Below the pieces are notes generated by a model. The model was not told the DNA's origin. It searched no databases and worked only from the letters and a program-made list of their open reading frames with translations. Positions 17,264-23,005 of a DNA stretch of 64,000 nucleotides are shown here, in pieces. This stretch comes from Chitinophagaceae bacterium. Its GTDB lineage: Bacteria; Bacteroidota; Bacteroidia; Chitinophagales; Chitinophagaceae. Within the stretch, counting starts at the first letter, position 1, and every line of letters begins with the position of its first letter. A program made the position numbers and the translations under genes. The DNA lies in contig CANGYR010000006.1 of NCBI GenBank assembly GCA_947458275.1, forward strand, positions 62,001 through 126,000. Reading direction: 5' to 3'.

Positions 17264-18163
17264 ATGCAACCAACTCTTTTAATATTAGCCGCAGGTATGG
17301 CAAGCAGATATGGCAGTATGAAACAGACGGAGGGATTTGGCCCGTCGGGAGAGACTATTATGGATTATTCAATTTATGATGCCATTAAAGCCGGTTTTGG
17401 AAAAGTGGTATTCATCATCAGAAAAGATTTTGCTGAAAATTTTAAGAATAAATTCGGATCCAAACTTGCCGGAAAAATTGAGGTGGACTATGTGTACCAG
17501 GAAATGGATTCCTTTGTTGAAAAAAATCAAATTCCTACGGAGAGAACAAAACCATGGGGCACGGGCCATGCCATTCTTTGTGCAAAGGATGCGGTGAAAG
17601 AACCTTTTGCTGTTATTAATGCCGATGATTACTACGGACCAGATGCATTCGTTAAAGCCGCCGGTTTTCTGAGTAATCAATGTAATCCCAATCTGTATGC
17701 TATTGTTGGATATCAGCTCGATAAAACATTAAGTAATCATGGTACCGTCAGCAGAGGCGTTTGCCAGGTAGATGATAATGGTAATCTGATAGCCATCAAT
17801 GAGAGAACCAAAATATTTCAACAGGAAACTAAAGTTGTATATGAAGAGGATGGGGGACTGAAAGAAGTTGCAGGATCTTCCAGTGTGTCTATGAATTTCT
17901 GGTGCTTTCACCCATCAGTATTTGATTTGTCATTGAAATTATTTCAGCAATTTGTTCCTCAAAATGCAGAAAATATCAAAGCTGAATTTTTTATACCGAT
18001 CATTGCAGATAAGTTTATTACAGATCAATCCAATTCGATAAAAGTAATTCCTACCACTGCGCAGTGGTTTGGCGTGACTTATAAAGAAGATGCTCCGGGA
18101 GTAAAAAATAATATAGATGAGCTGATAAGCAATAAAGTTTATCCCGAAAGTTTGTGGGTATAA
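17264..18163 (+). CDS. Sugar nucleotidyltransferase
   Basis: NTP-transferase (GT-A-like) fold of 299 residues. It starts with the nucleotide-binding signature LAAGMASRYGSMKQTEGFGP and has the metal-binding Asp segment FAVINADDYYG near residue 125. The family makes NDP-sugars such as UDP- or dTDP-glucose from sugar-1-phosphates. This protein lacks clear GalU- or RmlA-specific context, so the sugar is not assigned. In this phylum it is often annotated only as nucleotidyltransferase. Substrate recognition may use the NFWCFHPSVFDLS region near residue 210. It is monocistronic, between two divergent or convergent genes. Confidence 0.8.
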   Translation: MQPTLLILAAGMASRYGSMKQTEGFGPSGETIMDYSIYDAIKAGFGKVVFIIRKDFAENFKNKFGSKLAGKIEVDYVYQEMDSFVEKNQIPTERTKPWGTGHAILCAKDAVKEPFAVINADDYYGPDAFVKAAGFLSNQCNPNLYAIVGYQLDKTLSNHGTVSRGVCQVDDNGNLIAINERTKIFQQETKVVYEEDGGLKEVAGSSSVSMNFWCFHPSVFDLSLKLFQQFVPQNAENIKAEFFIPIIADKFITDQSNSIKVIPTTAQWFGVTYKEDAPGVKNNIDELISNKVYPESLWV

Positions 18164-18193: not shown

Positions 18194-19303
18194 TTAATTT
18201 CCTTTAATCATGAAGATATAGTCCTGTACTTTTTTAACCTGGCTAACACGGTCACTTCCTCTCAGTGAAGGATTCGTAGTGATTCTTATGTTTGTTAGTT
18301 CAGATGATTGCTTCAAATCGTTGATTGCTTTTTGGATAAATGATGATTTAATCACAAAAACAACCCCTTCTGAATTTGTTTCTCTGCTTGAAACTACTCC
18401 AATAAGGTCACCGTTTTTGTTGATTACCGGAGATCCGCTGTTCCCTTCATTCGCAGTGGCGCTAATCTGATAAAAAACAGTGTCCATTTGATATCCATTC
18501 TTCGCACTCACATATCCTTCGTTGTAAACAATCTCTTGTTTTGGATATCCGAGTGTAAATATTTGTTCTCCCAATTCCGCAACATTCTTCTTGATGCCAA
18601 ATGGAGCCGGCAAATACTTTTTAAAATCTTCGTCAGTAATCTGTAAAATCGCCAGATCGTTTTCATTGTTCACAAAAACAGGTTTCGCAATGAATTGGTT
18701 GCCTTTGTTGTCTTCAATAAAAAGCTGGTTTTTTGCTTCATTCAATACATGAGCATTAGTGACAATTAGGTTGTTGTTTACGTCAACCAAAAAACCTGTA
18801 GCTCTGAATTTACTTTCTGCCTTTGGTTTGTTGGAAATATTGCCAGTATTTAATTGTCCTATTTTCTTTTCGAGTGATTTGTATTTGTTGTCCTGTTCTT
18901 TTATTTTCTCAACAAGCGGCTTAATATTGTTGATTTTATTGTTGTTGAAAACTGAAGTAAGAATTCCTCCAATTATAGAAACAATACCTGCTATAGATGC
19001 AGCAACGGCAATTGTTTTTTTGTATTTGTTCCAGAGGAAAACCACTTTTGCTCTTCCTTTAACTGCATTTTTTTCAATAATACCTTGTTCGGTAAGTTTG
19101 GAAGAAGTTTCATTCAGAAGATGAATGAAATGTTTTGTTTCGCTGTACTTATCCAATTCATTCAAAAAGAATATTTTCTCCACAACCAGTTGATCCAGCT
19201 CGGCATTATTCTTTCTCATCTCCTCAAAAAATTCTTTTTCCTGAATGCTCATTTCACCTCTGAGGTATCTTTCTGCGGCATCAATCAGTAATGCGTCTTC
19301 CAT
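18194..19303 (-). CDS. Membrane-anchored trypsin-like protease with anti-sigma-like N-terminus
   Basis: 369 residues in three parts. Residues 1-75 (ERYLRGEMSIQEKEFFEEM) look like the cytoplasmic N-terminus of a FecR/anti-sigma protein. A single membrane segment follows (about 100-120, AVAASIAGIVSIIGGILTS), then a Lys/Glu-rich predicted coiled coil (130-155). Last is an HtrA/trypsin-type periplasmic domain with the whole triad: TNAHVL (His), ENDLAILQI (Asp) and GNSGSPV (Ser). There is no PDZ domain. It starts 2 bp after the ECF sigma factor stop, so translation is probably coupled. I infer that it combines sequestration of the sigma factor with its own periplasmic protease or sensor. The alternative is a protease that merely sits beside the sigma gene. 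Confidence 0.8.
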   Translation of the reverse strand: MEDALLIDAAERYLRGEMSIQEKEFFEEMRKNNAELDQLVVEKIFFLNELDKYSETKHFIHLLNETSSKLTEQGIIEKNAVKGRAKVVFLWNKYKKTIAVAASIAGIVSIIGGILTSVFNNNKINNIKPLVEKIKEQDNKYKSLEKKIGQLNTGNISNKPKAESKFRATGFLVDVNNNLIVTNAHVLNEAKNQLFIEDNKGNQFIAKPVFVNNENDLAILQITDEDFKKYLPAPFGIKKNVAELGEQIFTLGYPKQEIVYNEGYVSAKNGYQMDTVFYQISATANEGNSGSPVINKNGDLIGVVSSRETNSEGVVFVIKSSFIQKAINDLKQSSELTNIRITTNPSLRGSDRVSQVKKVQDYIFMIKGN

Positions 19304-19305
19304 TT

Positions 19306-19869
19306 TTATCCGTTTTTATATTGAGCAAAAAACAACTTTTTTAATCTGACCAGACACTTATATTTTTGAGTCTTGGCATTGTCAGCATTAGTATAACTGA
19401 ATTCATCAGCAATCTGATGCATGGGCTTTTTATGGATATAATAAGCTTCCAGTAAACTTTTACAGGGCTCACCGATTTTACTCATGGCATTCTCCATGAT
19501 AGTGAAGTTTACCTGATTTCTTTCGTGCAATTCTATGTCTTCTTCTACGGAGATGACTTGTTCGATATCCTCAATTTTAACTCCGCCTTTTTTCTGTTGT
19601 TGAAGCTTTTTTAACCAAAGTCTGCGACATACAGAATATAAGTAGGTTTTTAACTGACAGTGCAACTCAAATCCGGGTTGTTTTGACTTTTCAAACAACA
19701 CAATCATTCCTTCCTGAAAGATATCAGCCGCATCGTCTGAAGAACCATTATTGTTTATGACAAGATTGGTAATCATTGAGTAATTTTCCTTATAAATCAA
19801 CTCGATGATTTGATTGTCCTTATTCGCGAGTCCGACTAATAGCTGTTTTTCCTCCTCTGATAGATTCAC
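19306..19869 (-). CDS. ECF-type RNA polymerase sigma factor
   Basis: 187 residues, the usual length of sigma-70 family group 4. Region 2 is recognisable at DAADIFQEGMIVLFEKS (core-binding and -10 melting) and region 4 at QIADEFSYTNADNAKTQKYKCLVRLKKLF (helix-turn-helix for -35 recognition). The linker is Lys/Glu-rich. The next gene, with an anti-sigma-like head, is 2 bp downstream in the same operon. The upstream 130 bp, shared with a divergent lipoprotein gene, contains two inverted repeats and may include an autoregulated promoter. Which subfamily it belongs to cannot be read by eye. Confidence 0.88.
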   Translation of the reverse strand: MNLSEEEKQLLVGLANKDNQIIELIYKENYSMITNLVINNNGSSDDAADIFQEGMIVLFEKSKQPGFELHCQLKTYLYSVCRRLWLKKLQQQKKGGVKIEDIEQVISVEEDIELHERNQVNFTIMENAMSKIGEPCKSLLEAYYIHKKPMHQIADEFSYTNADNAKTQKYKCLVRLKKLFFAQYKNG

Positions 19870-19901
19870 TATACTTTATTTTATACTTTTTTTGAGCATA
19901 A

Positions 19902-19966
19902 GTAACCCGATTTAAAAAAAAATATATATTTTTGGGTTACCTTATTAATATTTAAGTATTAATAAG
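19902..19966. promoter_or_regulatory. Two inverted repeats between the sigma and lipoprotein genes
   Basis: GTAACCC (19902-19908) is repeated inverted as GGGTTAC (19934-19940) around a 25-bp A/T core. Right after it lies a perfect palindrome, CTTATTAATA (19941-19950) and TATTAATAAG (19957-19966), with a 6-bp spacer. It sits in the divergent control region, so it is a candidate operator or sigma-dependent promoter pair. The role is inferred from position and symmetry only. Confidence 0.4.
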
Positions 19967-20000: not shown

Positions 20001-20207
20001 ATGAAAAAGTTTTTTGCAATTGCGATCATCGCTGCTTCTTTGACTGCCTGTGGCGGTGAAACTAAAACTGAAGAAACAACTGTAGACACTGCTGCGGCTG
20101 CTATAGACACTGCTGCTGCTGCAATAGATACTGCTGCTAAAGCTATAGATACTGCTGCTGCTGCTGTAGATACTGCTGCTAAAGCTGTAGAAGTTAAAAA
20201 ACCTTAA
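20001..20207 (+). CDS. Small lipoprotein with five alanine-coil heptads
   Basis: 68 residues. The signal peptide ends in a lipobox LTAC, with the lipidated Cys at residue 17. From residue 28 to 62 the protein is five perfect 7-residue units, each V/I-D-T-A-A-A/K-A, followed by VEVKKP. The DNA has matching 21-bp tandem repeats (20082-20186). A hydrophobic V/I every seventh residue with Ala elsewhere predicts an alanine-zipper coiled coil, similar in principle to Braun lipoprotein Lpp but about as short as its minimal form. No homologue is recalled, so function is unknown; a structural envelope lipoprotein or oligomer is inferred. It is divergent from the sigma-protease operon and followed by a strong terminator. 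The repeat number may vary between strains. Confidence 0.8.
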   Translation: MKKFFAIAIIAASLTACGGETKTEETTVDTAAAAIDTAAAAIDTAAKAIDTAAAAVDTAAKAVEVKKP

Positions 20208-20386: not shown

Positions 20387-23005
20387 ATGACTATGAACTT
20401 GCAAAATTTTACCATCAAAGCAACTGAAATTATTCAGCAGGCTCAGCAATTGGCCTTCAATGCTAAGCATCCCAATATTGAGACTGAACATATATTGAAA
20501 TCCTTATTGAAATCGGAGGATTCTCCCATTGATTATCTGCTGAAGAAGAATAACGTTACCATTAATTTACTGGAAGCCAAACTGGATGAGCTGATAAATA
20601 AATTGCCAGTCACCACATCAGAACCTGCACAAAATATCGGCAGAGAAGCGAATGCGGTTTTGCTTCGTTCCGGTGCTGTGCTCAGTACTTTCGGAGATGA
20701 GTTTGTTGCCACCGAACATATCTTACTGGCCATTGTTCAGGGAAATGATGCTACGGCAAAGATTTTAAAAGATGCCGGTCTTACCGATAAAGGTTTAATT
20801 GCTGCTATAAAAGAATTAAGAAAAGGAGCAACCATCTCATCTCAAACTCAGGAGATTCAATTTAACGCATTGAACAAATATGCCAAGAACCTTATTGAGA
20901 TGGCAAGGTTGGGAAAACTGGATCCTGTTATCGGTCGAGATGAAGAAATCAGAAGAACGCTGCATATTTTAAGCAGAAGAACCAAAAATAATCCCATTTT
21001 GGTGGGTGAGCCCGGAGTGGGTAAAACCGCCATCGCAGAGGGATTGGCCATACGTATTGTAAATGGGGACGTTCCTGAAAATCTGAAATCAAAAATCATC
21101 TATGCACTTGACATGGGGCAACTGATTGCAGGTGCAAAATATAAAGGTGAGTTTGAAGAGCGCCTGAAGTCAGTTGTGAAAGAAGTGACAGACAGCGACG
21201 GAGAAATTGTTTTATTCATTGATGAAATTCATACCCTCATTGGAGCTGGCGGTGGAGATGGTGCTATGGATGCAGCAAATATTTTGAAGCCCGCACTGGC
21301 AAGAGGTGAACTGCGCGCAATAGGAGCCACCACACTGAATGAATACCAAAAATATTTTGAAAAAGATAAAGCCCTGGAGCGTCGTTTCCAGAAAGTGATC
21401 ATTGATGAGCCAACTACTGAAGATGCTATTTCAATATTAAGAGGATTGAAGGATCGTTATGAAACCTATCATCATGTAAGAATAAAAGATGAAGCCATCA
21501 TTGCGGCAGTGGAACTTTCACAAAGATATATTTCAGATCGTTTTCTTCCGGATAAAGCAATTGACCTGATTGATGAAAGCGCAGCCAAACTCCGATTGGA
21601 AATGAATTCTATGCCTGAAGAGCTGGATAAGCTGGAGCGTCAAATAAGACAACTGGAAATTGAGAGAGAAGCGATTAAACGTGAAAATGACGAGGTTAAA
21701 TTGAAAGAGCTGAATACCGAGATAGCTAATCTCTCTGTGGAGCGAGATACCTACACATCTAAATGGAAAGAAGAAAAGGAAATTGTTGAAAAAATACAAA
21801 ACGGCAAAGCAACCAAAGAAAAACTAAAACTCGAAGCAGAACAAGCGGAAAGGAACGGGGATTATGGTAAAGTAGCCGAAATCAGATACGGTAAGATCAA
21901 GGAGCAGGAAGCGTTAATTGAACTGAGTATGAAACAGCTGGGAGAACTATCCGAAAAAAGACTGCTGAAAGAGGAGGTAGATGCTGAAGATATTGCCGAA
22001 AGTATTGCTAAAAGCACCGGAATACCTGTTTCCAAAATGATGCAAAGCGAGAAAGAAAAATTACTGCATCTGGAAGATGAATTGCATCAACGTGTGGTTG
22101 GTCAGGAGGAAGCCATCGAAGCGGTTGCAGATGCTATCAGAAGGAGCAGGGCGGGGCTGCAGGATCCAAAAAAACCAATTGGTACATTCATATTTTTGGG
22201 CACAACAGGAGTAGGTAAAACCGAACTGGCTAAAGCACTGGCAGAGTATTTGTTTGACGATGACTCTATGATGACACGAATCGATATGAGCGAATACCAG
22301 GAAAAGCATACAGTAAGCCGTCTGGTGGGTGCTCCTCCCGGATATGTAGGATATGATGAAGGCGGACAACTGACAGAGGCAGTAAGACGTAAACCTTATT
22401 CTGTGATTCTTTTAGATGAAATTGAAAAAGCTCACCCCGATGTTTTTAATATTCTGCTACAAGTGTTGGATGACGGTCGCCTGACCGACAATAAAGGCAG
22501 GCTGGTAAACTTTAAAAATACCATCATCATCATGACCAGCAATATGGGCAGCAATATCATTCAGGAAAATTTTGGAAACGTTTCAGAACAAAATAAAGAG
22601 TCAGTTGTTGAGATTACTAAGGTTGAGGTGGTCAATTTACTTAAACAAACCATCCGGCCTGAGTTCTTAAACAGAATTGATGAGATAATCATGTTTCAGC
22701 CTTTGATGAAAAATGAAATCAGGGGCATCATCCAGATTCAACTGAATGAATTGAAAAAACTGGTCGCTAAAAATGGGGTAGAACTTCAGTTTAGTGATTA
22801 TACTCTGGATTATCTGTCCGAAAATGGGTACGATCCTCAATTTGGCGCAAGGCCATTGAAAAGACTGATTCAGAAACAAATAGTTAACCAACTGAGCAAG
22901 AAATTGCTTGCAGGAGACGTTAATAAATCACAGCCTGTTATGGTAGATGTTTTTGACGGTGTGGTTGTCTTTCGTAATGAAATCATGTCAAAAGTACCCG
23001 CCTGA
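20387..23005 (+). CDS. clpB: Disaggregase chaperone ClpB
   Basis: Hexameric AAA+ unfoldase that rescues aggregated proteins with DnaK. 872 residues, normal for the family. An N-terminal repeat domain (to about 145) precedes two AAA+ modules: Walker [14 protein letters not shown] and Walker [15 protein letters not shown] in the first, [13 protein letters not shown] and [14 protein letters not shown] in the second. The middle coiled-coil domain (about residues 400-530, [18 protein letters not shown]) distinguishes ClpB from ClpA or ClpC. A second start (ATG 20393, MNLQNFT) is more like other members. The gene is alone, with its own -7 box. Confidence 0.97.

Follow-up and report, generated by a model that had tools for sequence, protein, structure and literature searches.

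An ECF sigma factor gene paired with a putative anti-sigma factor that carries a trypsin-like protease domain in Chitinophagaceae

We found that an ECF sigma factor gene and the gene directly behind it, which encodes a trypsin-like protease joined to a putative anti-sigma factor, form a core locus of Chitinophagaceae. Our preferred reading, which we hold with somewhat more than even confidence, is that the two constitute an autoregulated sigma/anti-sigma pair whose anti-sigma factor bears its own periplasmic site-1 protease. A fuller version is put forward more tentatively, as having a little less than an even chance: regulated intramembrane proteolysis organized in one polypeptide, with a trypsin-type site-1 protease placed on its own anti-sigma substrate, present in several Bacteroidia families and serving, through a very strict promoter, a near-private regulon with a low-complexity lipoprotein as its chief product. 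In many pathways that release a sigma factor from its anti-sigma factor, site-1 cleavage is the step at which the signal is sensed, and a separate protease usually carries it out. If the protease on the anti-sigma factor does act in this way, the sensing step would be a property of one protein. The locus may also offer an entry to anti-sigma factors in Bacteroidota; a survey of class I anti-sigma factors reported class I neighbors for only 6% of Bacteroidetes ECF sigma factors, and the word trypsin is absent from it (PMC7406223). No matching description was found in the open-access papers that were searched.

The gene pair and its distribution

The window, i.e., the whole 64,000-nucleotide stretch of Chitinophagaceae DNA that was analyzed, contains the two genes on the reverse strand with a gap of 2 bp, in the positions that the first-pass annotation had given them:

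19306..19869, reverse strand: gene for an ECF sigma factor of 187 aa, starting with GTG (ORF, profile matches and alignment)
18194..19303, reverse strand: 369-aa protein, a putative anti-sigma factor with an attached trypsin-like protease domain (ORF, profiles, AlphaFold and homologues)

The sigma protein matched Pfam Sigma70_r2 (7e-7) and NCBIfam TIGR02937 (sigma70-ECF, 9.6e-19). The layout proposed earlier for its partner, with a cytoplasmic head, one membrane helix and a trypsin-like protease, was recovered by profiles and in the AlphaFold model (56 homologues, mean pLDDT 81). A convergent gene at 17264-18163 on the forward strand (299 aa, nucleotidyltransferase-like by eye) adjoins the pair in many Chitinophagaceae loci.

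Within Chitinophagaceae, 285 of 299 genomes, representing 103 of 104 genera, gave matches at E 1e-25 or better, and the divergent examples examined were full fusions. Related loci were drawn from GTDB contigs and whole-genome searches; 217 pairs were collected, of which 191 distinct pairs were compared. The protease gene lies directly downstream of the sigma gene and on the same strand in all 191, with a median gap of 1 nt (20 nt or less in 184). Thus, the pairing, whose conservation in relatives the first-pass annotation had left as a point on which its reading could fail, is retained in every distinct pair, and because it is conserved across Chitinophagaceae and beyond, chance is not its explanation. 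In a sample of the phylum Bacteroidota, 37 of 396 genomes matched at E 1e-30. Sigma factor and fusion occurred together in four further Bacteroidia families (all 14 fetched loci of f23, f29 and f30, and one f20 genome); in the remaining relatives sampled, the match was limited to the protease, often plus the tail, in secreted stand-alone proteins. All 47 fusion-linked sigma factors sampled for the sigma tree formed one clade (support 0.65), which is consistent with, and does not firmly establish, a single origin of the fusion. One locus (L096, 2077-4744) was considered as a split fusion; in it, a sigma gene and a gene for a protease-free protein of head and membrane helix lie beside a divergent gene for a secreted, trypsin-like protease that has the same C-terminal tail. 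It was left out as evidence because it is a single case and its sigma factor falls outside the fusion clade.

The head as a putative anti-sigma domain

19064..19303, reverse strand: residues 1-80 (head), a cytoplasmic domain of three helices that lacks cysteine and is putatively anti-sigma (AlphaFold and profile comparison)

In the AlphaFold model, the helices of the head occupy residues 2-72, and a cytoplasmic location would fit Lys95-Lys96, which stand ahead of the hydrophobic stretch 97-119. Where sigma factors of this group fall outside the fusion clade, the next gene often encodes a short protein that has a membrane helix and a head of similar kind and lacks the protease; several of these protease-free proteins bear TPRs. 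A comparison of their heads with those of the fusions by hhalign gave a probability of 98.4% (E 8.9e-15 over 72 columns), and an NCBIfam model for anti-sigma factors matched some of them, at best with 1e-6, which is under the cut-off of that model. The head-TM-TPR proteins of Bacteroidota thus resemble the fusion in that head and membrane helix are homologous and the gene comes immediately after a homologous sigma gene; their periplasmic part, however, is a TPR region or a short tail, and the protease is absent. Because the head is homologous to those of protease-free membrane proteins encoded beside related sigma genes, it is very probably an anti-sigma domain, and we infer that it binds the sigma factor.

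Searched by itself, the window protein's head gave no match to an anti-sigma profile, and the head profile retrieved only coiled-coil and nuclear-receptor noise from PDB sequences. A fold search of the head, in line with the structural check suggested at first pass, gave four PDB hits, none of them significant; two of the four were the anti-sigma factor RslA bound to a sigma domain (RslA hit at E 7.7). Zf-HC2 matched 14 of 90 heads (best 0.0011), and the head, having no cysteine, contains no zinc motif. The label "FecR-like" was dropped since neither FecR nor DUF4880 profiles matched.

It is also conceivable that the fusion is no anti-sigma factor and acts as a positive partner of the sigma factor, or is an unrelated membrane protease that is co-transcribed. 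No profile matches the window protein's head significantly, and in a mean-field DCA of the 191 pairs the head accounted for 16 of the 50 strongest inter-protein couplings compared with 6-16 in shuffles, i.e., not above the shuffled range, both of which would agree with this possibility. We nevertheless regard it as quite unlikely in view of the hhalign homology to heads of other sigma neighbors, the sub-cut-off anti-sigma model matches of some of those homologous heads, and the operon order, which is universal in the pairs compared. Counting against the preferred reading, in two loci of family f30 (L213 and L214) the fusion starts near head residue 46, so that helices 1-2 are apparently missing, and sigma factor, promoter and protease are kept.

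Protease domain, linker and the proposed release of the sigma factor

18947..19015, reverse strand: membrane helix, residues 97-119 (AlphaFold and conservation in 191 homologues)
18809..18946, reverse strand: linker/helix in the periplasm, residues 120-165, with little conservation except at Leu130
18914..18916, reverse strand: Leu130 codon, candidate site-1 cleavage position (98% of 191)
18299..18808, reverse strand: trypsin-like protease domain of DegS/HtrA fold, residues 166-335, no PDZ (Pfam, AlphaFold and Foldseek)
18749..18751, reverse strand: catalytic His185 codon (191/191)
18656..18658, reverse strand: catalytic Asp216 codon (191/191)
18437..18439, reverse strand: catalytic Ser289 codon (191/191)
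18197..18298, reverse strand: conserved C-terminal tail, residues 336-369, common to secreted stand-alone protease relatives

Pfam Trypsin_2 matched residues 168-303 of the fusion (E 7.4e-23), the AlphaFold model has a trypsin fold at residues 166-333, and the best Foldseek matches of this domain were the protease domains of DegS and HtrA1. Among NCBIfam models, TIGR02037 degP (6.9e-21) and MarP (1.4e-20) matched below their curated cut-offs; for example, the fusion scored 74.7 bits with degP against a cut-off of 416, and 45 with degS against 423. The Pfam scan detected no PDZ domain, and the tail was modeled as a helix plus one strand (352-368). The His-Asp-Ser triad, described as complete at first pass, is indeed present and is invariant in the 191 distinct homologues, as are Gly287 and Gly290. 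These features bear on the possibility that the domain is mainly a ligand-binding sensor and that other enzymes perform the release. A precedent is RsgI9, whose C-terminal domain is homologous to proteases and has polysaccharide-binding ability (PMC12203970), yet if the domain served for binding alone, one would expect the nucleophile to have been lost in some lineages, and the homologues span several families. The invariant triad therefore favors catalysis over ligand binding alone, and we consider such a sensor decidedly improbable.

HtrA-fold domains are quality-control proteases, and the protease might accordingly be aimed at other periplasmic proteins, degrading misfolded ones, with its occupancy shifting the state of the anti-sigma factor and a separate site-1 protease starting the release. 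The occurrence of protease plus tail as secreted stand-alone enzymes in related families, and further HtrA-like matches in the genome of the window, are compatible with this explanation, which, however, accounts neither for the retention of the protease on the anti-sigma factor in all 191 pairs nor for an isolated conserved leucine in the linker. We think it rather unlikely. Examples of the stand-alone enzymes are encoded at L082-L095, which have the protease domain of the fusion, mostly its tail, and no same-group sigma gene in the fetched stretch.

The leucine in question, Leu130, is conserved in 98% of the 191 homologues in a linker whose neighboring positions are mostly at 20-50%. Since HtrA proteases commonly cleave after aliphatic residues, it qualifies as a plausible position for the first cut; it could instead be structural, as a packing residue. 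An isolated, almost invariant residue in a variable linker is suggestive, and only suggestive, of self-cleavage. On balance, we lean slightly towards self-cleavage by the fused protease as the site-1 cut. AlphaFold placed a long membrane helix at 84-119, followed by a helix at 128-152, and small residues in the membrane helix are near-invariant (Ala101 in 191 of 191, Ala102 in 190, and Ala105 or Gly in 189). The genome of the window has one site-2 protease (S2P, PF02163) gene. What stands of the anti-sigma/protease fusion put forward by the first-pass annotation is thus a conserved, membrane-anchored, protease-bearing regulator, found in all 191 pairs, with a head homologous to those of other sigma neighbors; sigma binding and self-cleavage we infer.

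Under the preferred reading, the head would keep the sigma factor at the inner membrane in the resting state. An envelope signal would switch on the DegS-like protease domain, which would cut its own linker or that of a neighboring copy, possibly beside Leu130. The site-2 protease would next cut the Ala-rich membrane helix and release the sigma factor, which would transcribe its own operon and a divergent lipoprotein gene from paired promoters. New anti-sigma factor would then reset the system, with the lipoprotein as the main output.

The proposed site-1 then site-2 logic is that of the E. coli DegS-RseP-RseA-sigmaE system, in which the anti-sigma factor is single-pass and the DegS protease is membrane-anchored. 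The present locus likewise has a membrane-anchored protease of DegS fold, a single-pass putative anti-sigma factor and a site-2 protease gene, but protease and anti-sigma factor are one polypeptide and the PDZ domain is absent. Other systems resemble it in part. RsgI of Clostridium thermocellum, grouped here with the SEAL domain, is an anti-sigma factor that supplies its own first cut by autocleavage of a periplasmic domain (PMC12203970), and RsgI9 also bears a protease-like domain. In contrast to the trypsin-type protease found here, RsgI uses autocleavage, and the RsgI9 domain is reported to bind polysaccharides; besides, RsgI acts on SigI-type sigma factors, whereas no RsgI profile was among the Pfam and NCBIfam matches of the fusion and its sigma partner matches the sigma70-ECF model TIGR02937. 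Dma1 and Dma2 of Bacteroides, which occur with an ECF21 sigma factor, have an N-terminal sigma-binding domain, a membrane helix and a beta-barrel on a disordered tether (PMC13088901). They are similar as a Bacteroidota sigma/anti-sigma pair with a membrane helix and a fused envelope domain, except that the C-terminal part here is a trypsin fold by AlphaFold and Foldseek and not a beta-barrel. In Pseudomonas putida IutY, signaling parts that are usually separate are also joined in one protein, in that case sigma factor and anti-sigma factor (PMC8999054), and here anti-sigma factor and protease.

Predicted promoters and lipoprotein target

19880..19908, reverse strand: predicted sigma-operon promoter, GGGTTAC-N15-GTATAAA, ending 10 nt before the GTG
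19934..19962, forward strand: mirror promoter toward the lipoprotein gene, GGGTTAC-N15-GTATTAA (motif comparison)
20001..20207, forward strand: small lipoprotein, predicted sigma target, 68 aa, with lipobox LTAC and IDTAAAA-type repeats

A predicted promoter shared by the sigma operon and the divergent lipoprotein gene is a new feature described here. Its consensus upstream of the sigma gene is GGGTTAC, 15 or 16 nt, and GTATWAA; a near-consensus pattern was recovered ahead of the sigma gene in 180 of 191 cases, and the other 11 mostly deviate by one or two bases. A mirror site, within 500 nt and facing a divergent gene, was present in 138 of the 191. Most of the first set of sites have a -10 element that ends 9-13 nt ahead of the start codon, which probably leaves the sigma mRNA almost without a leader; leaderless mRNAs account for 5.5% in F. 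psychrophilum (PMC9723704). The GGGTTAC motif also occurs at some loci that lack the fusion (L127, L128, L133 and L140), and the promoter type may therefore predate the fusion.

The regulon was sought by a pattern search of the genome. The genome of the window has exactly two exact sites, both at the sigma/fusion locus, and the search found no site with one mismatch; sites with two mismatches (29, against 71 control matches) were discarded as noise. Of 100 Chitinophagaceae genomes, 91 bear sites, usually two or three each, against a control total of 35. By this predicted motif, the pair seems to control almost nothing beyond itself and the small lipoprotein, and a locus that is near-universal in a large environmental family would have a promoter strict enough for regulons to be read from sequence alone. 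Downstream of such sites, we identified 158 distinct small lipobox proteins, in which the median mature length is 49 and Ala, Thr, Lys, Asp and Ser are abundant; the window lipoprotein, divergent from the sigma operon, is rich in Asp, Thr and Ala. Extra sites in other genera repeatedly precede members of two further families, one of 96 aa that matches AMPK1_CBM (L191, L196, L198, L199 and L205) and one that is secreted and about 145 aa long (L188, L189, L190, L202 and L204); neither target family was found in the genome of the window.

After the lipoprotein gene, and in the same direction, lies a gene for an AAA+ chaperone of ClpB type, identified by eye from its sequence (20387-23005, forward strand). 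It was rejected as a conserved co-regulated neighbor; among the fetched loci it is present only in those of the window's own genome, and it may therefore reflect a local arrangement. At L208, L210, L218, L219 and L220, two GGGTTAC sites are oriented outward from the sigma gene, and small lipoprotein ORFs, one or two per locus, lie alongside; at L208 two such ORFs are in tandem.
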